From: Rhodospirillum centenum SW
GTDB taxonomy: Bacteria; Pseudomonadota; Alphaproteobacteria; Azospirillales; Azospirillaceae
Assembly: GCF_000016185.1 (NCBI RefSeq)
Contig: NC_011420.2
Coordinates: forward strand, 516,501-580,500
DNA length: 64,000 nucleotides
Reading direction: 5' to 3'
Shown: positions 2,727 to 58,246 of the stretch, piece after piece
Numbering within the stretch: position 1 is the stretch's first letter
Layout: each line of letters opens with the position of its first letter
The notes under the pieces: model-generated
Told to the model about the DNA's origin: nothing
Seen by the model: the letters and a program-made list of their open reading frames with translations, nothing else
Databases searched by the model: none
Translations under genes and position numbers: made by a program

Positions 2727-4208
<1,482 letters not shown>

Positions 4209-42417: not shown

Positions 42418-43143
42418 TTAGCGCGCCGCCCGCCCCGCTGCCAGCGGGAAGCGTTCCACCAGCCGGAACGGCTCCCCCCGCCGCTCCTGCCGGAACAGGG
42501 CGAGGTCGCGCACCGGCAGCGGCAGCCGGCGCAGCGGGGCGAAGACCGCCTCCAGCGCCGTGTCCACGGCTGCGGCTGCATCCGGGGGCACGGGGTCGGT
42601 CAGGGTCATGTGGAAGCGGAACTCCCCCAGCACGTAGGGATAGCCCCAGCGCTCCAGCATCGCCTGCTGCCCCGGTGTCAGCCCCGCGGCCAGCCGGCGC
42701 GCCAGCTCTGCCGGCGTCGGCGGGGCGCGGAACCCGTCCAGCCCGCGCACGCAGGCGGCGGCGAGCCGGTCCAGGTCCAGGCAGTCCGCGGCCGGAACCA
42801 GGGCGCGGAAATCGCCCAGCCGGGCCGGGCGCAGCGGCGGCGCGTCGAACGGCGCCAGCCCGGCCGCAAGCTCCGCCACGGCGGCGCGCAGGTCCGTCTC
42901 CGTCCGGCCCGCGGCCAGGGCGAAGGGGGGCTTCAGGGTAGCGTGGAAACCGTAGCCGGCCGCGGTCGCGGTCAGCCGGGCCAGGTCCGCGGCCGGAATC
43001 CCGGTGTCGGGCCGGGGCGGCGTCTCCCCCGTTTCCGGGTCGCGGCCCAGCCAGGCCGTACCCAGGCGCCAGTGCGGACCGTCGTGCGGCGGCGCGTAGT
43101 AGACGGCCCAGCGGCCGGTGTCCTCCGTGCTGCCGGCGCTCAC
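42418..43143 (-). CDS. DUF1045 2H-phosphoesterase-like protein of phosphonate operons
   Basis: 241 residues. Two HxT motifs, YGFHATLKPPF near 63 and FRFHMTLTDPV near 177, define the 2H phosphoesterase superfamily; the whole matches DUF1045, usually found beside C-P lyase genes. It may hydrolyse cyclic phosphodiester intermediates like PhnP, but this is inferred. The stop of phnM and its ATG overlap (43140-43143). Confidence 0.88.
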   Translation of the reverse strand: MSAGSTEDTGRWAVYYAPPHDGPHWRLGTAWLGRDPETGETPPRPDTGIPAADLARLTATAAGYGFHATLKPPFALAAGRTETDLRAAVAELAAGLAPFDAPPLRPARLGDFRALVPAADCLDLDRLAAACVRGLDGFRAPPTPAELARRLAAGLTPGQQAMLERWGYPYVLGEFRFHMTLTDPVPPDAAAAVDTALEAVFAPLRRLPLPVRDLALFRQERRGEPFRLVERFPLAAGRAAR

Positions 43144-44264
43144 AGCACGCGCCGTCCGCCGCGCCAGACGCGCCGGACCACCGGCCCGTGGTCCGTCTCG
43201 CGCACCTGCACCAGATCGGCCCGCAGGCCGGGGGCGATCTCGCCGCGGTCGTCCAGGCCCAGCGCCCGCGCCGGCGTCCGGCTGACCATGGCGACGGCCG
43301 CCGGCAGGGCGATGACCCTGTCCCCGGACAACCGGAAGACGGCCTGCATCAGGCTGGCGGGCATGTAGTCGGACGACAGCATGTCCAGCAGCCCGGCCCG
43401 TGCCAGTTCCAGGGCCGACACGTTGCCCGAGTGCGACTGGCCGCGGACGACGTTCGGCGCGCCCAGCACGGTCAGCATCCCGTGCTCCCGCGCCGCCGCG
43501 GCGGCGGCGGCCGTCGTCGGGAATTCGGAGATGACGAAGCCCAGGGCCTTCGCCTCCGCCACATGCTCCGGAGTCTCGTCGTCATGGCTAGCGACGGGGA
43601 TGCCGCGGGCGCGGCAGGCGTCCGCCAGCAGGGCGCGGTGGCGGGCGGCGTGGCGCGCCTGCCGCTCTCGGCTCTGGTCGATGGCCGCGTCCACCTCTGC
43701 CGCCGAAGCGCCGAACGCTTCCTGGTAGCGGCGGAACTTCGTCAGGTCCGTGAACTGGCGCTGACCCGGCGTGTGGTCCATGACGGAGACCAGCCGCACC
43801 GACGGGTCGCCGGCATGCGCCTCGAACAAAGCGGGCAGGTCGGGGTCCGTCACCTCGCAGCGGAGATGCAGCAGATGCTCCGCGCGCAGGTGCCCCGCCT
43901 CCCGTGCGGCGGCAAGGCCGGGGATGGCGGCCGCGGCGATGCCGGCCCAGTCGCGGCCCGGCCCGGCACCGATGCAGAGCGCGTCCAGCACCGTCGTGAT
44001 GCCCGCCGCGGCCACCTGCGCGTCGTGCGCCAGCACGGCGGAGAAGGCGGGCCAGACGACGCCGGGGCGCGGCGTCAGATGCTTTTCCAGATTGTCGGTG
44101 TGGATCTCCACCAGCCCCGGCAGCAGCAGGTCGCCCTCAAGGTCGAGCGCGCCGGGCGGGGGGCGGCGATCGCCGTCGATCGCGGCGATGGTTCCGCCGG
44201 CCACGGCAACGCTGCCGGGGACGACGGCATCGGCCAGCACGAGGCGGGCATTGCCCAGGATCAT
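43140..44264 (-). CDS. phnM: PhnM, ribose 1-methylphosphonate 5-triphosphate diphosphatase
   Basis: Amidohydrolase-superfamily diphosphatase of the C-P lyase pathway. 374 residues, close to the usual ~378. Metal-binding blocks: VEIHTDNLEKHLTPRPGV near 50, SVMDHTPGQRQF near 160, VASHDDETPEHV near 222. ATG 44264 gives the family start (MILGNARLVL). The frame upstream to 44432 is Arg-rich and rejected. Other phn genes (GHIJKL) are absent from the window, so this pair is separated from C-P lyase unless the rest lies elsewhere. Confidence 0.92.
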   Translation of the reverse strand: MILGNARLVLADAVVPGSVAVAGGTIAAIDGDRRPPPGALDLEGDLLLPGLVEIHTDNLEKHLTPRPGVVWPAFSAVLAHDAQVAAAGITTVLDALCIGAGPGRDWAGIAAAAIPGLAAAREAGHLRAEHLLHLRCEVTDPDLPALFEAHAGDPSVRLVSVMDHTPGQRQFTDLTKFRRYQEAFGASAAEVDAAIDQSRERQARHAARHRALLADACRARGIPVASHDDETPEHVAEAKALGFVISEFPTTAAAAAAAREHGMLTVLGAPNVVRGQSHSGNVSALELARAGLLDMLSSDYMPASLMQAVFRLSGDRVIALPAAVAMVSRTPARALGLDDRGEIAPGLRADLVQVRETDHGPVVRRVWRGGRRVL

Positions 44265-44694: not shown

Positions 44695-45810
44695 ATGGCG
44701 AAATCCATCCTGATCACGGGCGGCGCCGGCTTCATCGGCTCGCATCTGGCCGACGGACTGCTGGCCGCGGGCCATCGGGTGCGGGTCCTGGACTCCCTCT
44801 CGCCGCAGGTTCATGCCGACGCGGAGCGGCCCGCCTATCTCGATCCCGGGGTGGAACTGCTGCGCGGCGACGTGCGCGACCCCGGCGCGGTGTCGCGCGC
44901 CCTGACCGGGGTGGATGTCGTCTACCATTTCGCCGCCATGGTCGGCGTCGGCCAGAGCATGTACCAGGTCGCCGACTACACCTCGGTGAACGATCTCGGC
45001 ACCGCCGTGCTGCTCCAGGCCCTGATCGAGCGGCCGGTCGAGCGTCTGGTCGTCGCCTCCTCCATGAGCGTCTACGGCGAGGGGCTGTACCGCTCGCCCG
45101 ACGGCCGCGTCGTGGAAGGGGTGGAGCGGGGCCGCGCCCAGCTATCCCGCGGGGAGTGGGAGCTGCGCGACGCCGACGGCGCGCCGTTGCAGCCGGTGCC
45201 GACGCCGGAGAGCAAGCGCCCCTCGCTCGCGTCGGTCTATGCGCTGGGCAAGTACGTGCAGGAGCGGCAGTGCCTGCTGGTCGGCGCGGCCTACGGCATC
45301 GCCACGGTGGCGCTGCGCTTCTTCAACGTCTACGGCACCCGTCAGGCGCTCTCGAATCCCTATACCGGGGTGCTGGCGATCTTCGCCTCGCGCCTGCTGA
45401 ACGGCAACCGGCCGATGATCTTCGAGGACGGGCGGCAGAAGCGCGACTTCGTGCATGTGCGCGACGTGGCCCGCGCCTGCCGGCTGGTGCTGGAGCGGCC
45501 GGCCGCGGCCGGGGAGGTGCTCAACATCGGCTCCGGTCAGGCCATCGCCATCGACGACCTTGCCGGCCGGCTGGCGGGCATCGTCGGGCGGCCGGACCTC
45601 GTGCCGGAGATCACCGGGCGCTGCCGCGTCGGCGACATCCGCCACTGCTTCGCGGACATCGGCAAGGCCCGGGCGGTGCTGGGCTACGAACCCGGGGTCG
45701 GGCTGGAAGAGGGGCTGACGGAGCTGGCGGACTGGCTGTCCGGGCAGATCGCCGTGGACCGGGTGGAACAGGCGGCGCGCGAGCTGGCCGCCCGGGGGCT
45801 GACGGTATGA
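44695..45810 (+). CDS. NAD-dependent nucleotide-sugar epimerase/dehydratase
   Basis: 371 residues, extended SDR. The Rossmann motif is ITGGAGFIGSH near 7, and the catalytic Tyr-Lys pair is in SVYALGKYVQE near 180. VALRFFNVYGTRQ and DFVHVRDVARAC are typical of UDP-glucose 4-epimerase-like enzymes. The substrate is unknown. An insertion-like stretch (about 125-168) before the YxxxK is longer than usual. First gene of the operon; ATG 44695 has GAGGA 6 nt upstream. Its stop overlaps the next start by 4 bp. Confidence 0.9.
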   Translation: MAKSILITGGAGFIGSHLADGLLAAGHRVRVLDSLSPQVHADAERPAYLDPGVELLRGDVRDPGAVSRALTGVDVVYHFAAMVGVGQSMYQVADYTSVNDLGTAVLLQALIERPVERLVVASSMSVYGEGLYRSPDGRVVEGVERGRAQLSRGEWELRDADGAPLQPVPTPESKRPSLASVYALGKYVQERQCLLVGAAYGIATVALRFFNVYGTRQALSNPYTGVLAIFASRLLNGNRPMIFEDGRQKRDFVHVRDVARACRLVLERPAAAGEVLNIGSGQAIAIDDLAGRLAGIVGRPDLVPEITGRCRVGDIRHCFADIGKARAVLGYEPGVGLEEGLTELADWLSGQIAVDRVEQAARELAARGLTV

Positions 45811-46952
45811 GCTGCCGCGCGGGTGCCGGCCTCTCCGGAACGGACCTGTCGGCGGGGGCGGCGCTGGCGCGGCTGCCCGGTCCCCCCGACCGGCCGGTGC
45901 TCATCACCGGCGGCGCCGGCTTCGTCGGCACCAACCTCGCCGACCGGCTGGCGCGGGAGGGGCGGCGGGTCATCGTGCTGGACGATCTGAGCCGCCCCGG
46001 CGTGGAGCGCAACCTAGCCTGGCTGCGTGCCATGCACGGCGACCGCATCCTCCCCGAGCTGGCGGACATCCGCGACGGCGAGCGGCTGGGCCGTGCCGTC
46101 GCCCGCAGTGCCGCCGTCTTCCACCTTGCCGCCCAGGTGGCGGTGACGACCAGCCTGCGCGACCCCGTCCACGATTTCGAGGTCAATGCCTGCGGCACCC
46201 TGCGCGTTCTGGAGGCGGTGCGGGCGCAGCCTGAGCCGCCGCCGCTGGTTTTCAGCTCCACCAACAAGGTCTACGGCGCTCTGCCGGACCTGGAGCTGGT
46301 GGAGGAGGCGGACCGCTGCCGTCCGGCAGACCCCGGCCATGCCGGCGGCGTGCGCGAGGACAGGCCGCTGGACTTCCACAGCCCCTACGGCTGTTCCAAG
46401 GGGGCGGCGGACCAGTACGTGCTGGACTATGCCCGCAGCTACGGGCTGCCGGCCACGGTCTTCCGCATGAGCTGCATCTACGGCCCGCACCAGTTCGGGA
46501 CGGAGGACCAGGGCTGGGTGGCGCACTTCCTGATCGCCGCGGCGGAAGGACGGACCATCACCCTGTTCGGCACCGGCCGGCAGGTGCGCGACATCCTGCA
46601 TGCGGACGATCTGGTGGACGCCTTCCTGCTGGCGCTCGGCAACCGCGACGCGGTTTCCGGCCGCGCCTTCAACATCGGCGGGGGACCCGCCAACGCCGTC
46701 AGCCTGCGCGAAGTGCTGGAGCAGATCGCCGGGCTGGACGGCCGCCTGCCGGCCGTGGAGTACGGCCCGTGGCGGACCGGCGACCAGCCCTGGTACGTCG
46801 CCGACATCTCCCGCTTCCGGCAGGCCACCGGCTGGACCCCCGGCATCGCGGCTGCCGACGGAATCGCCCGGCTGCACCGCTGGCTGCACGGGGAGCGGCC
46901 GGGGCTGCCGCTGGTCGAGGTGGTGGCCCGGTCCCTGCCGGCCGCCCAGTAG
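45807..46952 (+). CDS. Second nucleotide-sugar epimerase, CDP-paratose 2-epimerase-like
   Basis: 381 residues, extended SDR. About 25 extra N-terminal residues precede the Rossmann motif ITGGAGFVGTN near 34. The catalytic pair is in SPYGCSKGAAD near 195, and VFSSTNKVYG near 150 is a pattern seen in CDP-paratose (tyvelose) 2-epimerases. C-terminal NIGGGPANAVSL and WRTGDQPWYVADISR follow the family. It overlaps the first epimerase, suggesting two consecutive sugar steps. Confidence 0.88.
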   Translation: MSCRAGAGLSGTDLSAGAALARLPGPPDRPVLITGGAGFVGTNLADRLAREGRRVIVLDDLSRPGVERNLAWLRAMHGDRILPELADIRDGERLGRAVARSAAVFHLAAQVAVTTSLRDPVHDFEVNACGTLRVLEAVRAQPEPPPLVFSSTNKVYGALPDLELVEEADRCRPADPGHAGGVREDRPLDFHSPYGCSKGAADQYVLDYARSYGLPATVFRMSCIYGPHQFGTEDQGWVAHFLIAAAEGRTITLFGTGRQVRDILHADDLVDAFLLALGNRDAVSGRAFNIGGGPANAVSLREVLEQIAGLDGRLPAVEYGPWRTGDQPWYVADISRFRQATGWTPGIAAADGIARLHRWLHGERPGLPLVEVVARSLPAAQ

Positions 46953-46989
46953 CACCCGCCCGACATCCGGGCCGACCGGAGGACAGAGA

Positions 46990-48276
46990 ATGCGCGTGGC
47001 GCTGGTGAACCCGAACTGGAGCTTCGAGGGCTCGATCTATTTCGGCTGCCGCGAGCCGCACCTGCCGCTGGAGTTCGGCTACGCCAAGGCCCTGCTGGAG
47101 CGCGACGGCCATGTGGCGGAGATCCTGGACGCCCAGCTCCTGGACCTGTCCGACGCGGCGCTGCTGGCCCGGGTGCGGGAGTTCCGGCCGGACATGACGG
47201 TGGTGACCACGGCGCCGAGCTATCTGTTCTGGCGCTGCTGTCCGCCGGAACTGCGGGTGCCGCAGGCCGTGGTGCGGCTGCTGCGGCCGGTCGCGGGCAC
47301 GCTGGTGGGCGTCGGCCCGCACAGCTCCACCACGCCGCGGGCGGCGCTGGCGAAGCTGGGCGTGGACGTGGTGGTGCAGGGCGAGTGCGAGGAGCCGATC
47401 GCGCTGCTCGCGTCGGGCCGGGACTGGTGCTCCATCCCCTCCCTCTGCCATGCGCGCGACGGGGCGGTGCGGGTGCAGGGCGGCCCCCATGCCGGGACCT
47501 TCACGGATCTGCCGGCGCTGTCCTGGCCCGACGGGTGGATCGCGCGGCACCGCCACCACCATCACCGCTTCGATGCGCCGCCCGCGGGTCCGGGAGCGGA
47601 GGTGGAGGCCAGCCGCGGCTGCCCCTATTCCTGCACCTTCTGCGCCAAGGAGAATTTCCGCGACCGCTACCGCCGCCGCCCGGTGGAGGTGGTGATGCGG
47701 GAGATCGACGGGCTGATCGCCCAGGGCGTGGAGTATGTCTATTTCATCGACGAGATATTCCTGCCCAACCGGCCGCTGCTGGAGGCGCTGGCGGAGCGGC
47801 CGGTGCGCTTCGGGGTACAGACCCGGATCGACATCTGGAAGCCGGAGATGATCGCGCTCCTGGGCCGCGCCGGCTGCGTCTCCATCGAGGCCGGCGTGGA
47901 AAGCCTGACGGCGGAAGGGCGGCAGGCGCTCGACAAGGACTGCCGCCTGTCCACGGACGAACTGACGGAGCGGCTGATCCTGGCCCGGCGGCATGTCGCC
48001 TTCGTCCAGGCCAACCTGATCGACGCCGGCGACGACGATCCCGAGACGGTCCGCGCCTGGCGCGACCGGCTGCGGCAGCACGGGGTCTGGGCCAACGACC
48101 CGGTGCCGCTGTTCCCCTATCCGGGCTCCCCCGACTACCGCAGGCTCTGGGGCCTGCCCGACGACCGCGCCTGGGAACGGGCGCTGGACCATTACCTGGC
48201 CGCCCACGGCCGCTTCAGCGACCTCCAGGACGAACGGCCGCGTCCGCTCGCCGAGCTGGAAGCGGCCCATGGCTGA
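46990..48276 (+). CDS. B12-binding-domain radical SAM protein
   Basis: 428 residues. A cobalamin-binding-like Rossmann domain covers about 1-145 (VALVNPNWSFEG ... LVGVGPHSSTTP). The radical SAM domain starts near 195 with the [4Fe-4S] motif C-P-Y-S-C-T-F-C (CxxxCxxC) in ASRGCPYSCTFCAKENF. VYFIDEIFLPNRPLL and SIEAGVESLTAEGRQAL are typical inner blocks. A run of histidines (HRHHHHR) just before the cluster is unusual. Class-B B12 radical SAM enzymes often methylate unreactive carbons, so a C-methylated sugar or aglycone is plausible. It overlaps the following GT4 gene by 8 bp. Confidence 0.88.
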   Translation: MRVALVNPNWSFEGSIYFGCREPHLPLEFGYAKALLERDGHVAEILDAQLLDLSDAALLARVREFRPDMTVVTTAPSYLFWRCCPPELRVPQAVVRLLRPVAGTLVGVGPHSSTTPRAALAKLGVDVVVQGECEEPIALLASGRDWCSIPSLCHARDGAVRVQGGPHAGTFTDLPALSWPDGWIARHRHHHHRFDAPPAGPGAEVEASRGCPYSCTFCAKENFRDRYRRRPVEVVMREIDGLIAQGVEYVYFIDEIFLPNRPLLEALAERPVRFGVQTRIDIWKPEMIALLGRAGCVSIEAGVESLTAEGRQALDKDCRLSTDELTERLILARRHVAFVQANLIDAGDDDPETVRAWRDRLRQHGVWANDPVPLFPYPGSPDYRRLWGLPDDRAWERALDHYLAAHGRFSDLQDERPRPLAELEAAHG

Positions 48277-49408
48277 GCGGCCCGAGGTCGAGCGGCCGGC
48301 CCGGCCCGGAGAGCCCCTGCATGTCCTGATGACGGCCGACTGCCTGGGCGGCGTCTGGGACCATGCGCTGACGCTGGCGGGACAGCTCGGCCGTGCGGGC
48401 GCCCGCACGACCCTGGCCGTGCTGGGCGGACCGCTGGCGCCCGACCAGCGGCAGGCCGCGGCGGCCGTGTCCGGCCTGCACCTGGAGGAGAGCGACTGGC
48501 GCCTGGAATGGATGCCGGACGCGGGCGCCGACGTGGCCCGCTCCGGCGACTGGCTGCTGGGGCTGGAGGACCGGCTGCGGCCGAACGTCGTCCATGTCAA
48601 CGGCTACGCCCACGCCGCCCTGCCGTTCCGGGCGCCGGTGCTGTGCGCGGGGCACTCCTGCGTCCGCTCCTGGTTCGCCGCCGTGCGCGGGGAACCGCCG
48701 CTGTCCGACTTCGACCGCTATGCCGAGGGCGTGCGCGCCGGCCTCGCTGCCGCCGGCATGGTGGTGACGCCCAGCCGGACCATGGCGGCGGCGCTGGCCT
48801 TCCACTATGGCGTGCCGGTCGAGCCGGTGGTGATCCCCAACGGCGTCGCGGTGGAGGACTTCGCCCCCGCCGCCAAGGACGACCTGATCCTGTCCGTGGG
48901 CCGCATCTGGGACGAGGGCAAGAACATCGCCGCCCTGGAGGCCGTGGCCCCCCTGCTGGGCAGCCCGGTTGCCGTGGCCGGGGAGTCGCGGCATCCGGAC
49001 GGCTCCGAACGGGCGCCGCGCGCCGTGGCCCTGCTGGGCCGGCTGCCGTCGGCGGAGCTGCGCGACTGGTACGCCCGCGCCGCCGTCTTCTGCCTGCCGG
49101 CCCGCTACGAGCCGTTCGGGCTGGCCGTGCTGGAAGCGGCGCTGTCGGGCTGCGCCCTGGTGCTGGGGAACAGTCCCGGCCTGCGCGAGAACTGGGACGG
49201 AGCGGCGGTCTTCGTCGATCCCGACGACACGGCCGGGCTGGCGCGGGCGCTGAACCGGCTGGTCTGCGACCACGCCCGCCGCTGCGATCTGGCGGAGCGG
49301 GCGCGCATCCGCGGCCGCCGCTTCCGGGCCGACACCATGGCCCGGTCCTATCTCGGCGCCTATGCGGCGCTCACCGGGGCGCCGCGGCGCCGCTATGGCG
49401 TGGGGTGA
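48269..49408 (+). CDS. GT4-family glycosyltransferase
   Basis: 379 residues, GT-B fold. N-terminal HVLMTADCLGGVWDHALTLAGQL, and C-terminal VIPNGVAVEDFAP, ILSVGRIWDEGKN and the donor-binding region ARYEPFGLAVLEAALSGCALVLGN (EX7E-like pattern). It transfers a nucleotide-sugar moiety; acceptor unknown. It starts inside the end of the radical SAM gene and lies 5 bp from the next gene. Confidence 0.9.
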   Translation: MAERPEVERPARPGEPLHVLMTADCLGGVWDHALTLAGQLGRAGARTTLAVLGGPLAPDQRQAAAAVSGLHLEESDWRLEWMPDAGADVARSGDWLLGLEDRLRPNVVHVNGYAHAALPFRAPVLCAGHSCVRSWFAAVRGEPPLSDFDRYAEGVRAGLAAAGMVVTPSRTMAAALAFHYGVPVEPVVIPNGVAVEDFAPAAKDDLILSVGRIWDEGKNIAALEAVAPLLGSPVAVAGESRHPDGSERAPRAVALLGRLPSAELRDWYARAAVFCLPARYEPFGLAVLEAALSGCALVLGNSPGLRENWDGAAVFVDPDDTAGLARALNRLVCDHARRCDLAERARIRGRRFRADTMARSYLGAYAALTGAPRRRYGVG

Positions 49409-49413
49409 CGGCC

Positions 49414-50550
49414 ATGCGCTTCGTCTTCTTCGTGCATTCCCTCTTCTCCGACTGGAACCACGGCAATGCGCACTTTCTGCGCGGCGTCGTGACGGAGCTT
49501 CTGTCCCGGCGGCACGAGGTCTCCGTCTGGGAGCCGGCGGACGGCTGGAGCCGTGCCAACCTGCTGGCCCAACATGGGGAGGGTGCGCTGGCTGAGATCC
49601 GGGCCGCCTTCCCGCACCTGCGATCGCACGACCATGACCTGTCCGATCCCGGTTCCGAGGCGGTGCTGGACCGGGCCCTGGACGGGGCGGACGTGGTGCT
49701 GGTCCACGAATGGAACGACCCCGCCCTTGTCGCCGCCCTGGGCAGGCGGCGCGCGCGGGGCGGGCGCTTCCGGCTGCTGTTCCATGACACCCACCACCGC
49801 AGCGTCACCGCTCCGGAGGAGATGGCGCGCTACGACCTCTCCGCCTATGACGGGGTGCTGGCCTTCGGTCAGGCGGTGGCGGAGCGCTACCGCGCCCGAG
49901 GCTGGGGCCGGCAGGCGCGGGTCTGGCACGAGGCCGCCGACACCCGCCTGTTCCGGCCGCAGCCGACGCCGGAGGCGCGGCGCGACCTGATCTGGATCGG
50001 CAACTGGGGCGACGGCGAGCGCACCGCGGAGCTGCACGAGTTCCTGCTGGAGCCGGTGCGCACGCTGGGCCTGCGCGCCCGCGTCCATGGCGTGCGCTAT
50101 CCGGAGGACGGGCGGCGGGCGCTGGCCGAGGCCGGCATCGCCTACCGCGGCTGGCTGCCGAACCACCGCGCCCCCGCGGCGCTGGCGGCGCACCGGGTGA
50201 CGGTGCATGTGCCCCGCCGACCCTATGTGAAGGCGCTGCCGGGCATTCCGACCATCCGGGTGTTCGAGGCGCTGGCCTGCGGCATCCCCCTGGTCTCCGC
50301 CCCCTGGACGGACAGCGAGGGATTGTTCCGGGCCGGGCGCGACTTCCGCATGGTGCGCTCCGGCACCGAGATGACGAAGGCCCTGCGCGAGCTGCTGTCC
50401 GACCCCGACGCCGCGGCGGCGCAGGCGCGCAATGGCGTCGAGACGATCCGCAGCCGCCACACCTGCGCCCACCGGGTGGACGAGCTGCTGGCCTGCTGCG
50501 CCGACCTTGGGGTGCGCGGGTCCTCTCCCGCGCTTGCGGAGGTGTCCTGA
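49414..50550 (+). CDS. CgeB-like glycosyltransferase, copy 1
   Basis: 378 residues. FVFFVHSLFSDWNHGNAHFLRGVVTELLSRRHEVSVWEP at the start and IPTIRVFEALACGIPLVSAPW with GRDFRMVRSG at the end match the Glyco_trans_1_2 / CgeB type. LIWIGNWGDGERTAELHEFL marks the domain junction. First of three related genes in tandem. It starts 5 bp after the GT4 stop and ends 3 bp before copy 2. Confidence 0.85.
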   Translation: MRFVFFVHSLFSDWNHGNAHFLRGVVTELLSRRHEVSVWEPADGWSRANLLAQHGEGALAEIRAAFPHLRSHDHDLSDPGSEAVLDRALDGADVVLVHEWNDPALVAALGRRRARGGRFRLLFHDTHHRSVTAPEEMARYDLSAYDGVLAFGQAVAERYRARGWGRQARVWHEAADTRLFRPQPTPEARRDLIWIGNWGDGERTAELHEFLLEPVRTLGLRARVHGVRYPEDGRRALAEAGIAYRGWLPNHRAPAALAAHRVTVHVPRRPYVKALPGIPTIRVFEALACGIPLVSAPWTDSEGLFRAGRDFRMVRSGTEMTKALRELLSDPDAAAAQARNGVETIRSRHTCAHRVDELLACCADLGVRGSSPALAEVS

Positions 50551-50553
50551 ACC

Positions 50554-51672
50554 ATGACCGGCCTGAGCATCGCCTTCTACGGATCGAGCCTCGTCTCCGC
50601 CTACTGGAACGGGGCTGCGACCTACTACCGGGGCATCGTCAAGGAGCTGGCCGCCCGTGGCCACCGCGTCACCTTCTTCGAGCCCGACGCCTATGAACGG
50701 CAGAAGCACCGCGACATCCCCGATCCGGACTGGGCCCGCGTCGTCGTCTACGAGGCGACCGAGGCGGGGGTGTCGCGGGCGTTGGAGCAGGGGCGCGGCG
50801 CGGACGTGGTGGTGAAGGCCAGCGGCGTCGGCGTCTTCGATGCGCTGCTGGAGGCCGCGGTGCCGGAGATCCGCCGCCCGGACGGGCTGGCCGTGTTCTG
50901 GGACGTGGACGCCCCGGCGACGCTCGCGCGCCTGCACGCCGATCCGGCCGATCCCTTCCATGCCGCGCTGCGCCGCTACGATGCGGTGCTGACCTATGGC
51001 GGCGGCCAGCCGGTGGTGGACGCCTATGGCGCGCTGGGCGCCCGGGAGTGCGTGCCGGTCTACAACGCCGTCGATCCCGCCACCCACCATCCGGTGCCAC
51101 CCGACCCGCGCTTCGCGGCGGCGCTGGCCTTCCTGGGCAACCGGCTGCCCGACCGCGAGGCGCGGGTGGAGGAGTCCTTCCTGCGCGCCGCCGCCCTGCT
51201 GCCGGGGCGGCCCTGCCTGCTGGGCGGGGCGGGCTGGGGCGACAAGCCGCTGCCGGCCAATGTGCGCCATCTCGGCCATGTCGTCACGGCCGACCACAAC
51301 GCCTTCAACTGCACCCCGCTGGCCGTGCTGAACGTCAGCCGGGAGAGCATGGCCGCCACCGGCTTCTCCCCCGCCACGCGGGTGTTCGAGGCGGCGGGGG
51401 CGGCGGCCTGCCTGATCACCGACGCCTGGGAGGGGATCGGCCAGTTCCTGGAACCGGGACGGGAGGTGCTGGTCGCCCGCGACGGGGCGGAGGTGGCGGA
51501 GCTGGTCGCCGGGCTGACGCCGGAGCGCGCCCGCGCCATCGGCGCGGCGGCCCGGACCCGCGTGCTGGCGGAACATACCTACGCCCACCGGGCGGTGCTG
51601 GTGGACCGGCTGCTGACCGGGCGGCTGGCGCAGGAGCGGGCGCAGCCGGCCCCGGCGGGGATGCCGGCATGA
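50554..51672 (+). CDS. CgeB-like glycosyltransferase, copy 2
   Basis: 372 residues. The N-terminus (IAFYGSSLVSAYWNGAATYYRGIVKELAARGHRVTFFEPD) closely parallels copy 3. FSPATRVFEAAGAAACLITDAWEGIGQFLEPGREVLVA is the CgeB/Glyco_trans_1_2 signature. Donor and acceptor are unknown. The stop overlaps copy 3 by 4 bp. Confidence 0.85.
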   Translation: MTGLSIAFYGSSLVSAYWNGAATYYRGIVKELAARGHRVTFFEPDAYERQKHRDIPDPDWARVVVYEATEAGVSRALEQGRGADVVVKASGVGVFDALLEAAVPEIRRPDGLAVFWDVDAPATLARLHADPADPFHAALRRYDAVLTYGGGQPVVDAYGALGARECVPVYNAVDPATHHPVPPDPRFAAALAFLGNRLPDREARVEESFLRAAALLPGRPCLLGGAGWGDKPLPANVRHLGHVVTADHNAFNCTPLAVLNVSRESMAATGFSPATRVFEAAGAAACLITDAWEGIGQFLEPGREVLVARDGAEVAELVAGLTPERARAIGAAARTRVLAEHTYAHRAVLVDRLLTGRLAQERAQPAPAGMPA

Positions 51673-52853
51673 CGGGGGCGCTGGACATCGTCGTGCTGGG
51701 CCTGTCCATCACCTCCTCCTGGGGCAACGGGCACGCCACCACCTACCGCGGCCTGCTGCGCGAGCTGGCCGCCCGCGGCCACCGGGTCACCTTCCTGGAG
51801 CGCGACGTGCCCTGGTACGCCGCGGCGCGCGACTGCCCCGATCCTGCCGGGGTGCGGACGGCGCTGTACGGCTCCCTGGAGGAGCTGCGCGACCGTTTCG
51901 GCGCGGCGGTGCGGGAGGCGGATGCGGTGATCGTCGGCTCCTACGTGCCGGACGGGGTGGCGGTGGGCGACTGGGTGCTGGCCACGGCCCGCGGCCTGAC
52001 CGCCTTCTACGACATCGACACGCCGGTCACCCTTGCGGCCCTGGCGGGGGGAGGCGGCGGCAACGGGGGCACGGACTATCTGGCGGCTCGCCAGATCGCC
52101 GCCTATCGCCTCTATCTCTCCTTCACCGGCGGGCCGACCCTGCGCCGGCTGGAGCGGGAGTTCGGCGCGCCCATGGCGCGGGCGCTCTACTGCTCGGCCG
52201 ACCCGGCGCTGCACCGGCCGCAGGAGGTCGCGGTGGACTGGGCGCTGGGCTATCTCGGCACCTACAGCCCCGATCGTCAGCCGGTGCTGGAGCGGCTGCT
52301 GCTGGAGCCGGCCCGCGCCCTGCCGGGGGAACGCTTCGTCGTTGCCGGGGCGCAGTATCCGGACGGCATCGCCTGGCCCGGCAACGTGGCGCGCATCGCG
52401 CATCTGGAGCCGCCCCGCCATCCCGGCTTCTACAGCGCCCAGCGCTTCACCCTGAACGTGACCCGTGCCGACATGGTGCGGGCCGGCTGGTCGCCCAGCG
52501 TGCGGCTGTTCGAGGCGGCCTGCTGCGGCACCCCGATCATCAGCGATCCCTGGCCGGGGCTGGACAGCCTGTTCCGGCCGGGGCGGGAGATCGTCGTCGC
52601 CCGCACGGCGGCGGAGGTGCTGGAGGTGCTGACCGGGATGACGGCCGAGGCCGCCGCGGCGCTGGGCCGGCGGGCGCGGACACGGGTGCTGGCGGCGCAC
52701 ACGGCCGCCCACCGCGCGGCGGAGCTGGAAGGCCACCTGCACGCGGCCCTGGCCCGTCGCGCGGTGCCTGCCCGGCCCGCGCCCGCTGCGCCGGCAGCAC
52801 CCCCGTCGGTGTCCGCGCTGCGGCGCATCGCCAAGGGCACGGCGGCCGGCTGA
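51669..52853 (+). CDS. CgeB-like glycosyltransferase, copy 3
   Basis: 394 residues, paralogue of the preceding gene: SSWGNGHATTYRGLLRELAARGHRVTFLERD and WSPSVRLFEAACCGTPIISDPWPGLDSLFRPGREIVVA. It ends in an Ala/Pro-rich tail with a basic tip. Last gene of the gap-free operon; 97 bp separate it from the phosphatase gene. Confidence 0.85.
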   Translation: MTGALDIVVLGLSITSSWGNGHATTYRGLLRELAARGHRVTFLERDVPWYAAARDCPDPAGVRTALYGSLEELRDRFGAAVREADAVIVGSYVPDGVAVGDWVLATARGLTAFYDIDTPVTLAALAGGGGGNGGTDYLAARQIAAYRLYLSFTGGPTLRRLEREFGAPMARALYCSADPALHRPQEVAVDWALGYLGTYSPDRQPVLERLLLEPARALPGERFVVAGAQYPDGIAWPGNVARIAHLEPPRHPGFYSAQRFTLNVTRADMVRAGWSPSVRLFEAACCGTPIISDPWPGLDSLFRPGREIVVARTAAEVLEVLTGMTAEAAAALGRRARTRVLAAHTAAHRAAELEGHLHAALARRAVPARPAPAAPAAPPSVSALRRIAKGTAAG

Positions 52854-52950: not shown

Positions 52951-53664
52951 ATGTCTCAGGACCGGGCCGGCGGCGAGCGTGATCTCGCCTGTACCGTCGA
53001 CCGCTTTGCATTTCTTGCCGACCGGCGCCATCTGGCCGGGCGCTGGATCAATTCGGTGTTCAAGGACCATGCCTTCCTGCGCATGGCCTACAAGAACATG
53101 TTCCGGATCTCGCCGGGTATGTACCGGTCGAGCCAGCCGACCCCGGCGCACATCGCCGCCGCCAAGCGGATGGGCATCCGCACCGTCATCAACCTGCGCG
53201 GCCGGCGCGACGACTGCGGCTCCTATTTCCTGGAGGAGCGGGCCTGCCGGGAGCACGGGATCACCCTGGTGGACTTCCCGGTCAATTCTCGCGACGCCCC
53301 GCGCAAGCACATCCTGCATGCCGCACGCGACATCTGGGCCGGCGTGGAATATCCGGTGCTGATGCACTGCAAGGCCGGGTCGGACCGCGTCGGCTTCATG
53401 AGCGCGCTCTACATGCTGGTGCATGAGAAGCGCCCGCTGGAGGAGGCGGTGCGCCAGTTGAACTGGCGCTACGGCCATCTGCGTGCCGCCAAGACCGGCA
53501 TCCTCGACCAGTTCTTCGAGGAATACGCCGCCCGCAACGCCGAAAGCCCGATCGACTTCTACGACTGGGTGGATCAGGTCTACGATCCGCCGGCGCTGAA
53601 GGCCCGCTTCATGTCGCGCTGGTGGGCGAACGTGCTGGTCGACCGCGTGCTGAAGCGGGAATAG
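52951..53664 (+). CDS. Dual-specificity/tyrosine phosphatase-like protein
   Basis: 237 residues. The phosphatase signature HCKAGSDRVG (C-x5-R) lies near residue 148, preceded by the general-acid-region motif GITLVDFPVNSRD near 108. MFRISPGMYRSSQPT and TVINLRGRRDD are typical of bacterial DSP-like (Siw14/tyrosine phosphatase) proteins. ATG 52951 is chosen for its ribosome site. Substrate could be phosphoprotein, inositol phosphate or a glycan lipid phosphate; the location beside the glycan operon favours a role there. Confidence 0.85.
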   Translation: MSQDRAGGERDLACTVDRFAFLADRRHLAGRWINSVFKDHAFLRMAYKNMFRISPGMYRSSQPTPAHIAAAKRMGIRTVINLRGRRDDCGSYFLEERACREHGITLVDFPVNSRDAPRKHILHAARDIWAGVEYPVLMHCKAGSDRVGFMSALYMLVHEKRPLEEAVRQLNWRYGHLRAAKTGILDQFFEEYAARNAESPIDFYDWVDQVYDPPALKARFMSRWWANVLVDRVLKRE

Positions 53665-56483: not shown

Positions 56484-57857
56484 TCAGACATCCTCCGCCA
56501 ACCGGATACCCGTCATGTGCCAGCGGGATGCGGGCGTCAGATGGTGGCGGAAGCTGGCCCGCACCAGATCGCCCGGCGTCAGCGCGCTGCCGCCCTTCAG
56601 CACCATGCGCCCGGCGGCGGGAAGGCCGGCATGTTCGCCCACGGTCTTGTCGCCGGGCGACCAGCGCGGATAGGCGATCAGCGGGCTGGAGGTCCATTCC
56701 CAGCAGTCGCCGTAGATCTGCCAGGGACCGTCACCGATGCAGGTGGCCACGGCGGGATGCAGCCGCCCGTAGTCCAGCAGGTTGCCGGTGCGGCGCAGCG
56801 GCTGCGCCGCCGCCTCCCATTCCGCTTCGGTCGGCAGGCGCCGGCCGTCCCAGCGGGCGAAGGCCGCGGCCTCATGCCAGCTCACATGGCAGACGGGTTC
56901 CTCGCCATCCAGCAGCCTGGTTCCGGAGAGGGTGAACTGGAACCAGTCCGGTCCCCGCCTGAACCAGTAGAGGGGGGCCCGCCAGCCCTCGCGCTGGGCC
57001 GTGGCCCAGCCATCGGGGTCCCAGAGGGTCGCGTCGGCATAGCCGCCGTCCTCGATGAATTCCAGGTACTCGGCATTGGTGACCAGCCGGCCGGACAGGC
57101 GGAACGGTTCCAGCCAGACGACATGGCGTGGCTCTTCCAGGTCGAAGACGACACCGGGGCCGTCATGCCCGATCCCCTCCGGGCCGCCCGGATGCACGCT
57201 CCAGCTCTGCCCTGCGGCGGTCGTCAGGGCCGCGGGCTGCGGCGGCTGATAGGTCGGGCGCAGCGGGTTCTGCCAGAAGGCGTGCTTGATGTCGGCCAGT
57301 AGCCGCTCCTGGCAGTACTGCTCATGCTGGAGGGCCAGTTCGATCCGGCGGGCGACACCGCTCCAGTCGGCGTCCGGCGTCTCGTCGATCAGACGCAGCA
57401 CGGCGGCGTTCACATGGTCGCGGTACTGTCGCAGTTCCTCATGGCCGGGCCGGGAGAGCAGGCCTCGCGCCGCGGCGGGATGGCAGGTCGGCTGCGGTTC
57501 GACACAGGTGTTGAAAAGAAAGGCGAAGCGGTCGTCGAAGGCGCGGTAGCCGGGCGCGAAGCGTTCCAGCACATGGCGTTCCAGGGACCAGGAGGTGTGC
57601 GCCAGATGCCACTTCACGGGGCTCGTCTCCGGCGCCGACTGGACCATCTGGTCCTCGGGCGTCAGCGGGGCCGCGAGCTGCCCGGTCACGGTGCGGATGC
57701 GCCGGAAGCGGGCGGCCAGCAGCGGCCGCAGGTCGGCGGCCGGGGTGACGGTCCGAGCAGTGGGCGGTGGCCGGGCGGTGGCGGTGGCATCGCCGGAGCC
57801 GGCACGCTGCGGGGGCTGGAAGGCGGGACCGGCCATGGCCGGGTCGGGCGTGATCAT
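56484..57857 (-). CDS. egtB: EgtB-like sulfoxide synthase with altered metal motif
   Basis: 457 residues. The N-terminal DinB-like domain (about 40-190) has KWHLAHTSWSLERHVL near 85 and LALQHEQYCQERLL near 190. The C-terminal FGE-sulfatase domain ends CWEWTSSPLIAYPRW and KGGSALTPGDLVRASFRH. EgtB is an iron enzyme joining gamma-glutamylcysteine to hercynine in ergothioneine synthesis. The usual HX3HXE ligand motif reads HX3CXE here (H-E-Q-Y-C-Q-E), so one expected His ligand is Cys. No egtD neighbour is present. ATG 57857 has GGGGAGA 8 nt upstream. Confidence 0.82.
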   Translation of the reverse strand: MITPDPAMAGPAFQPPQRAGSGDATATARPPPTARTVTPAADLRPLLAARFRRIRTVTGQLAAPLTPEDQMVQSAPETSPVKWHLAHTSWSLERHVLERFAPGYRAFDDRFAFLFNTCVEPQPTCHPAAARGLLSRPGHEELRQYRDHVNAAVLRLIDETPDADWSGVARRIELALQHEQYCQERLLADIKHAFWQNPLRPTYQPPQPAALTTAAGQSWSVHPGGPEGIGHDGPGVVFDLEEPRHVVWLEPFRLSGRLVTNAEYLEFIEDGGYADATLWDPDGWATAQREGWRAPLYWFRRGPDWFQFTLSGTRLLDGEEPVCHVSWHEAAAFARWDGRRLPTEAEWEAAAQPLRRTGNLLDYGRLHPAVATCIGDGPWQIYGDCWEWTSSPLIAYPRWSPGDKTVGEHAGLPAAGRMVLKGGSALTPGDLVRASFRHHLTPASRWHMTGIRLAEDV

Positions 57858-58246
57858 CGGTGCGATCTCCCCTGTCGTCCGCCCGCGGGGCCGTCCCCGC
57901 GGGAGTACCGCCGATACCCGACCTTGCCGGGCATGGCGGATCATGGTCCCGGTGAGTGAACGTCACCGGGAAGCAACAGGACCAGTACGCGGATCAGGCG
58001 TCGCTCAGTTCAATCGGATGTCCGGCCCCCTTCGGCGGGGGCTCTCCCGGCGGCGCCGGTCGGACCCGTTCCCGGACTGTGCGGGGAGCGGGTGGGCACC
58101 GCCTGCCGGGTCTATCTCCCGGGATCAACTGGTCCCGGTTCCCGGTCTTTGCCGTGGCACGCATGATACACCCGCGCGCTTCCCACGGTCCAGGACACTC
58201 CGCCGCAGCCCCGCCCGCGAAGGCGCGGGCTGCGGGCGGTGTCGCG
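57858..58246. other. Intergenic region upstream of egtB
   Basis: 389 bp between egtB and the downstream end of the glucan synthase gene. Contains the 9 bp hairpin at 57947-57971, about 90 bp upstream of the egtB start. No gene seen. Confidence 0.4.
57947..57971. promoter_or_regulatory. Perfect 9 bp inverted repeat upstream of egtB
   Basis: TCCCGGTGA and TCACCGGGA are separated by GTGAACG. It is far from the preceding gene end, so an operator is more likely than a terminator. Confidence 0.35.

Follow-up and report, generated by a model that had tools for sequence, protein, structure and literature searches.

A seven-gene glycan-type operon of Rhodospirillum centenum with a B12-type radical SAM gene, and a second, co-occurring locus with an inositol-phosphate synthase gene

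The operon analyzed here comprises seven genes in a 64,000-nucleotide stretch of Rhodospirillum centenum SW (the window; contig NC_011420.2, positions 516,501 to 580,500), and parts of it resemble several described systems. Its third gene encodes a predicted B12-type radical S-adenosylmethionine (SAM) enzyme that shares with the class B cobalamin-dependent radical SAM enzymes TsrM, OxsB and MgmA, and with the related diol dehydratase AprD4, a common two-domain fold over 342-379 residues, the CxxxCxxC motif and a B12-type domain, at about 20% identity. The product of its second gene, epi2, is clearly nearest to CDP-tyvelose 2-epimerase (PDB entries 9rl0, 276 bits, and 1orr, 270 bits, vs. 138 bits for the next match), but no CDP-glucose 4,6-dehydratase scored above cut-off among the genes scanned here. 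The mycothiol pathway (INO1, MshA, MshB, MshC) resembles a second R. centenum locus, described below, which holds an inositol synthase nearest to that of mycothiol, a GT4 glycosyltransferase and a PIG-L deacetylase, but no member of that pathway reaches its cut-off here, MshC included. The curated families TIGR04295 (B12_rSAM_oligo) and its partner TIGR04290 (meth_Rta_06860), to which gene 3 and a methyltransferase of the second locus belong with scores above the NCBIfam cut-offs, are family names of the hypoth_equivalog kind (for TIGR04295, a curated NCBI name without function) and not a characterized pathway. We take TIGR04295 to belong to what older database text called the ‘rhizo-twelve system’, an unconfirmed name that is absent from the open-access literature searched, and the gene tag Rta_06860 presumably refers to Ramlibacter tataouinensis.

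Our analysis points to the operon as the glycan-assembly and tailoring half of a split, horizontally spread pathway whose other half lies about 238 kb away, with a product that is probably a small, cytosolic, inositol-based oligosaccharide or glycoside; we put the probability of this reading at roughly 55%. It draws on gene content, gene order, linkage in relatives and co-occurrence, and on knowledge of the protein families for its presumed enzymatic steps. The second locus, its co-occurrence with the operon and the inositol link are new here. The operon genes are as follows:

44695..45810, + strand, epi1: 371 amino acids, extended short-chain dehydrogenase/reductase (SDR), NAD-dependent sugar epimerase
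45807..46952, + strand, epi2: 381 amino acids, CDP-tyvelose-2-epimerase-like extended SDR
46990..48276, + strand, gene 3: 428 amino acids, TIGR04295 B12-binding-domain radical SAM protein
48269..49408, + strand, gene 4: 379 amino acids, GT4-type glycosyltransferase (PF13692, PF13439 and PF00534 above cut-off)
49414..50550, + strand, gene 5: 378 amino acids, CgeB-like glycosyltransferase a (PF13524, 131.6 bits)
50554..51672, + strand, gene 6: 372 amino acids, CgeB-like glycosyltransferase b (PF13524, 134.4 bits)
51669..52853, + strand, gene 7: 394 amino acids, CgeB-like glycosyltransferase c (PF13524, 139.0 bits)

The original prediction, a reading of the bare DNA, had described seven same-strand genes with gaps of -4, +37, -8, +5, +3 and -4 bp, and these figures are exact to the base. 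Its word ‘gapless’ slightly overstates the case, given the one 37-bp gap; its statement that the genes must act together is not implied by spacing alone but is backed by a gene order kept in four phyla. Relatives of gene 3 were collected in a scan of one genome per species, and the best 80 of 158 were used, with phyla taken from their database records. One locus of <4300 bases (L057) was left out of the order and second-half comparisons, leaving 79; the order test covered the 57 loci in which gene 3 is preceded by at least 3 kb and followed by at least 6 kb, and the second-half test covered 49. All seven genes occur in order in 50 of the 57 loci and at least six in 57/57, so the genes are not scattered in relatives. 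The full order is found in Alphaproteobacteria (38/41), Acidobacteriota (8/11), Myxococcota (3/3) and Cyanobacteriota (1/2), and each of the seven exceptional loci has one gene absent or out of order. Since homologues stand in the same order elsewhere, the seven open reading frames (ORFs) are considered real genes. Identity to homologues is 60-81% for gene 3 and ranges from 35% (GT4) to 81% for the other genes in the aligned pieces shown.

In a tree of 80 gene 3 proteins (the window copy and 79 loci, with the root drawn at the midpoint), the 24 non-alphaproteobacterial rows fall on one side of a branch with support of 99/94 and are nested among alphaproteobacterial rows. This nesting of three other phyla fits horizontal transfer. 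Gene 3 or part of it is also present on 11 plasmid records, from Azospirillum (7), Bradyrhizobium (2), Tistrella (1) and a Geminicoccaceae (1), with TIGR04295 annotation on 9/11 of these matches. The copies on two A. brasilense plasmids (NZ_CP012915, NZ_CP032340) are partial (48% of the query, no listed gene), and a remnant at G005:C2:520806-521417 holds two TGA stops; these copies suggest recent loss.

Clustering of ORFs across the 80 loci around the seven genes revealed further families. In two Bradyrhizobium loci (L073, L075) the neighbors of the operon encode inositol-phosphate synthase, histidine phosphatase, a PF13524 transferase that is the fourth of its kind, a nucleotidyltransferase, a methyltransferase of TIGR04290 (377 bits, cut-off 300), a phosphopentomutase and a TIM-barrel protein that weakly resembles glycosidases, with a UDP-xylose-synthase-like SDR 3' of the seven genes (the label is our reading of a putative enzyme for which no equivalog model scores above cut-off). 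The two halves are adjacent in Bradyrhizobium, Rhodoplanes, Belnapia and several Acidobacteriota loci. On the R. centenum chromosome, six of the Bradyrhizobium partner genes form a separate second locus (L101) at G000:C1 ~807,140-812,476, with further genes to ~816,200, which is not beside the operon and starts ~238 kb beyond its end (C1:569353). The genes run in the order inositol synthase, phosphatase, fourth CgeB-like transferase, nucleotidyltransferase, TIGR04290 methyltransferase and TIM-barrel protein, and successive gaps among the last five are -4, +24, -4 and -19; the inositol synthase (E 1.3e-168) and TIGR04290 (386 bits) were found together at C1:807143-811444. PIG-L deacetylase, a second GT4 and a GNAT protein are encoded beyond the TIM-barrel gene. 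A search confined to L101 found neither a phosphopentomutase nor a xylose-synthase-like gene. A 267-amino-acid protein encoded behind the second locus (L101:15417-16220) matches nothing in Pfam or NCBIfam at the limits used; L131, L134 and L135 have it at 72-76% identity.

Where the halves are unlinked, their presence is still strongly associated. Among 82 genomes of the family, TIGR04295 scores above cut-off in 35, TIGR04290 in 38 and both in 34; a close INO1 (E < 1e-160) is present in 37, including 33 of the 35 TIGR04295 genomes. Neither TIGR04295 nor TIGR04290 scores above cut-off in any of 14 control genomes. One genus (g3, 45 genomes) has both families in 26 genomes and neither in 19, and the halves have therefore been gained or lost together within a genus. 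Across 385 genomes sampled from the class, TIGR04295 occurs in 14, all 14 with TIGR04290, and in other phyla TIGR04290 is present in 16/16 gene-3 genomes (Acidobacteriota 12, Myxococcota 3, Cyanobacteriota 1; the genome of L010 was left out of this test). The operon had been presented as a complete pathway; given a co-occurring second locus with inositol-phosphate synthase and other genes, it probably is not. That the seven genes act alone, tied to the second locus by shared ancestry only, would agree with their separation from it in R. centenum and several related genomes and with the few genomes in which each half is found without the other. We nevertheless consider it very improbable in view of the near-perfect co-occurrence where the halves are unlinked, including patchy presence within one genus, and of the adjacency of the halves in Acidobacteriota and in other families.

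The inositol link comes from the second locus, which contains the only PF01658 gene of the R. centenum genome. With the R. centenum inositol synthase as query, matches were obtained in 0/16 genomes of other phyla at E 1e-30, a result that counted against the inositol idea until PF01658, the general family, was detected in 12/16 of them, i.e., as another type of synthase. In two Sorangium strains, which represent one species and thus one event, the other-type inositol synthase adjoins the operon. In one of the two loci (L044) it directly follows the xylose-synthase-like gene, holds PF07994 and PF01658, and is 24% identical to the R. centenum enzyme over 199 residues. This linkage of a distant synthase indicates that two distant inositol synthases have joined one gene set.

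An inositol synthase together with a PIG-L deacetylase also recalls a mycothiol-like thiol or redox cofactor of low molecular weight, assembled from inositol, glucosamine and cysteine. The second-locus INO1 has mycothiol_INO1 as its nearest model (539 bits), the second-locus GT4 weakly matches MshA/BshA and the PIG-L protein weakly matches BshB2, but all of these stay under the curated cut-offs (539 of 638 bits for INO1, 46 of 462.5 bits for the GT4 against MshA). The best MshC match in the genome reaches 309 bits vs. a cut-off of 485, and because the MshC model also matches below cut-off in 13/14 control genomes, this gene is presumably an ordinary cysteinyl-tRNA synthetase. With the seven assembly genes left unexplained as well, we give a mycothiol-type product very little credence.

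Several observations weigh against a split pathway built on inositol. The Fisher value for co-occurrence in the 82 family genomes (1.8e-17) is inflated by the relatedness of the genomes. TIGR04290 occurs without TIGR04295 in two genomes of the class (G217, G403), and in the family G076 has TIGR04295 without TIGR04290, G045 and G076 have TIGR04295 without a close INO1, and G001, G054, G066 and G077 carry the second half without TIGR04295. The second half is therefore usable alone or with other partners. PF01658 was not detected in G463, G465, G468 (1.2 Mb of sequence) and G474, all of which are metagenome-assembled genomes (MAGs) according to their records, so that absence is weak evidence either way. 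PIG-L is linked in 4/49 wide loci and, besides R. centenum, in 5/13 second-half stretches (the comparison covered 13 of the 38 TIGR04290-bearing family genomes, besides R. centenum and G045). The R. centenum TIM-barrel protein could not be placed in any Pfam or NCBIfam family at the limits used, and its structure model (predicted template modeling score, pTM, 0.84) finds only generic barrels, at weak scores (best E 5.8e-5, TM 0.43).

Sequence matches of the TIM-barrel protein in the PDB have E values of 0.055 or worse. An alignment of 18 copies (A2) shows residues N9, E10, P11 and E112 to be invariant (18/18), and a relative has one Pfam match just below cut-off (19.2 of 21 bits). Together with a motif rule that we assume, these features provide a lead toward a glycosidase-like protein. 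A second, divergent copy of the TIM-barrel gene (pieces 25-37% identical) lies between epi1 and epi2 in some Acidobacteriota, Cyanobacteriota and Alphaproteobacteria (L010, L015, L024, L030, L031, L035, L053, L069, L147, L148).

Gene 3 matches TIGR04295 with 727 bits (cut-off 400) over model positions 1-422 of 422, so the profile search proposed at the outset places it in a named family. The description ‘new’ is thus fair for the function and does not hold for the gene family, already named in NCBIfam. As had been read from the sequence, gene 3 has the features of a B12-type radical SAM protein: PF04055 Radical_SAM (45.9 bits), PF02310 B12-binding (36.0 bits, cut-off 32.1) and CPYSCTFC, an instance of CxxxCxxC that is kept in 77/79 homologues. 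This motif, the N-terminal B12-type domain and a matching predicted fold are those of class B, and gene 3 is accordingly a predicted cobalamin-dependent radical SAM (class B) enzyme. Its structure model (alignment A1, 25 rows from 24 of the 80 loci plus the window; pTM 0.90) is equally close to TsrM (Z 26.6), OxsB (26.1), MgmA (25.9) and AprD4 (25.6), which amounts to a tie. C-methylation and diol dehydration could not be told apart by nearest structure, which is AprD4, TsrM or a four-way tie depending on the method. The C-methylation or rearrangement suggested in the original prediction is a candidate reaction. Directly before the radical SAM core, residues 186-194 read RHRHHHHRF, and HxHxHH is present in 78/79 homologues. 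This stretch might bind metal, cobalamin or phosphate; the TsrM and MgmA alignments show no histidines opposite it, and the AprD4 alignment starts beyond it.

The likeness to AprD4 raises the question of an aminoglycoside-like cyclitol natural product, for which the radical SAM enzyme would act as a 1,2-diol dehydratase. AprD4 is the best PDB match in the single-sequence search (42 bits) and, solved with paromamine, is among the tied folds; the inositol synthase and PIG-L would suit a pseudo-oligosaccharide. Assignment of gene 3 to the AprD4 diol dehydratase family (NF033070) was rejected, however, at 45.4 bits vs. a cut-off of 500, and a profile search puts TsrM (44.3 bits) slightly above AprD4 (42.5 bits). 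No aminotransferase, resistance or export gene occurs among the named recurring families, and the distribution is broad and ordered, not strain-specific. We regard such a product as unlikely.

The remaining operon genes encode putative sugar-modifying and sugar-transferring enzymes. Both epi1 and epi2 match PF01370 Epimerase, and the earlier assignment of two sugar epimerases holds for both and can be sharpened for epi2. For epi1 (PF01370 178 bits), the best PDB chains, 6wjb (168 bits) and 6wj9 (165 bits), are named simply NAD-dependent epimerase/dehydratase and are followed by UDP-glucose 4-epimerase 4zrm (145 bits); no NCBIfam equivalog scores above cut-off among the matches listed. The motif counts for epi1 (29 and 24 of 74) are unreliable, tblastn having fragmented the gene, and the protein is probably a 4-epimerase. 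In epi2, the motifs YxxSK, TNKVYG and DQGW are present in 70/70 homologues and the dehydratase-type TDEV in 0/70. By the SDR motif rule that we assume (a catalytic YxxxK and no dehydratase TDE), epi2 fits the CDP-tyvelose 2-epimerase family, to which its nearest solved relative belongs, and it is a probable C2 epimerase of a nucleotide sugar. The predicted GT4 and three CgeB-like transferases are likewise borne out: gene 4 carries GT4 domains, with no NCBIfam model above cut-off, and genes 5, 6 and 7 all exceed the PF13524 gathering cut-off of 25 bits. ‘CgeB’ as a label for PF13524 was supplied by the original prediction and by us.

From these families we propose the following route. The inositol-phosphate synthase of the second locus would make inositol phosphate from glucose 6-phosphate, the histidine phosphatase would strip the phosphate and the nucleotidyltransferase would activate a sugar. 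On a nucleotide sugar, epi2 would reset C2 and epi1 probably C4, and the GT4 and three CgeB-like transferases of the operon, with the fourth CgeB-like transferase of the second locus, would put sugars on the inositol core. The TIGR04290 protein may then methylate the product. The B12-type radical SAM enzyme may alter a carbon of the cyclitol or sugar, with C-methylation as a first guess and diol dehydration or rearrangement as alternatives; the TIM-barrel protein, with its glycosidase-like conserved glutamates, may trim or transglycosylate, and PIG-L deacetylase, where present, could free an amino sugar.

The location of the product is suggested by which families recur around the operon. No carrier-lipid sugar transferase, flippase, polymerase or ATP-binding cassette (ABC) exporter was found among the nameable families recurring in at least 6/80 loci (clusters 14, 16, 17 and 21 are unnamed; 14, 17 and 21 have no Pfam match and 16 was left out of the scan). 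Clusters 10 and 18 we take, by position, to be antisense shadows of core genes. Because no such family is among the nameable ones, a small cytosolic product (a protectant, a cofactor or a priming glycan) is most likely. The original prediction is supported as to a conserved operon of glycan type, the B12 domain of its radical SAM enzyme and, among the nameable recurring families, the lack of an exporter or polymerase. Alternatively, the two loci could produce a glycolipid or a polysaccharide of the cell surface (cell-bound glycan, lipopolysaccharide, or cyst or exopolysaccharide decoration), with genes for export and polymerization elsewhere in each genome. Such loci typically contain several glycosyltransferases along with nucleotide-sugar epimerases, a nucleotidyltransferase and a xylose-synthase-like gene, but an inositol synthase would be unusual there, and the families for export, polymerization and lipid-linked assembly are those missing from the nameable recurring set; we regard a surface glycan as possible but doubtful. 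In the parts consulted of a study of Ramlibacter tataouinensis exopolysaccharide (PMC9658432), inositol serves as an internal standard only, which lends no support to an inositol link.

Upstream of the operon, phnM and the gene of a phosphonate-operon protein lie divergent from it, at window positions 42418-44252 on the - strand, and a cystathionine-gamma-synthase-like gene also lies on this side; downstream are an acyl-CoA dehydrogenase gene and, before it, one further feature:

52951..53664, + strand: dual-specificity-type phosphatase (PF22741 35.9 bits, PF22784 34.4 bits)

This phosphatase gene starts 97 bp 3' of the operon and has the same position only in L001 and L002 among the 80 loci; it is an optional neighbor and not an operon member. 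None of the five flanking genes named and checked encodes a transporter, polymerase or flippase, in agreement with the original prediction, which had noted none of these. Scans for promoters and terminators gave nothing clearly over shuffled sequence (0 vs. 0.3 and 2 vs. 1.3, respectively). Farther along the window, EgtB (ergothioneine biosynthesis) is encoded at 56484-57944 on the - strand (437 bits vs. a cut-off of 360). Oddly for a sugar pathway, a gene for DNA topoisomerase IB lies within or beside the gene set in six loci of one cluster, from a cyanobacterium (L010:11239-12372), four Belnapia species (L032, L033, L034 and L037, ~2992-4173) and a Methylocystis MAG (L013:3-1064); its identity was checked against Pfam in L010 and L037.

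A wider reading, which we advance only tentatively, is that the two loci represent an unstudied and widespread class of soluble, inositol-cored, cytosolic oligosaccharides. Some 13 enzymes would build each of them, and the B12-type radical SAM enzyme would alter them at the carbon level (C-methyl, deoxy or rearranged ring). The enzymes would have been passed between Alphaproteobacteria, Acidobacteriota, Myxococcota and Cyanobacteriota, with two distant inositol synthases recruited independently, and the product might serve in stress protection or as a cofactor.

We found no description of the system in the open-access literature, a weak absence since most subscription papers lay outside that search. 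If the split-pathway reading is true, a pathway ordered across four phyla makes a molecule for which that search returned no description. The reading predicts inositol as a building block, at which no single operon gene would hint. With the half that the gene order of the R. centenum genome had hidden now added to the gene list, the chemistry would become directly testable, and TIGR04295 and TIGR04290, two uncharacterized NCBIfam families, would gain a shared pathway.

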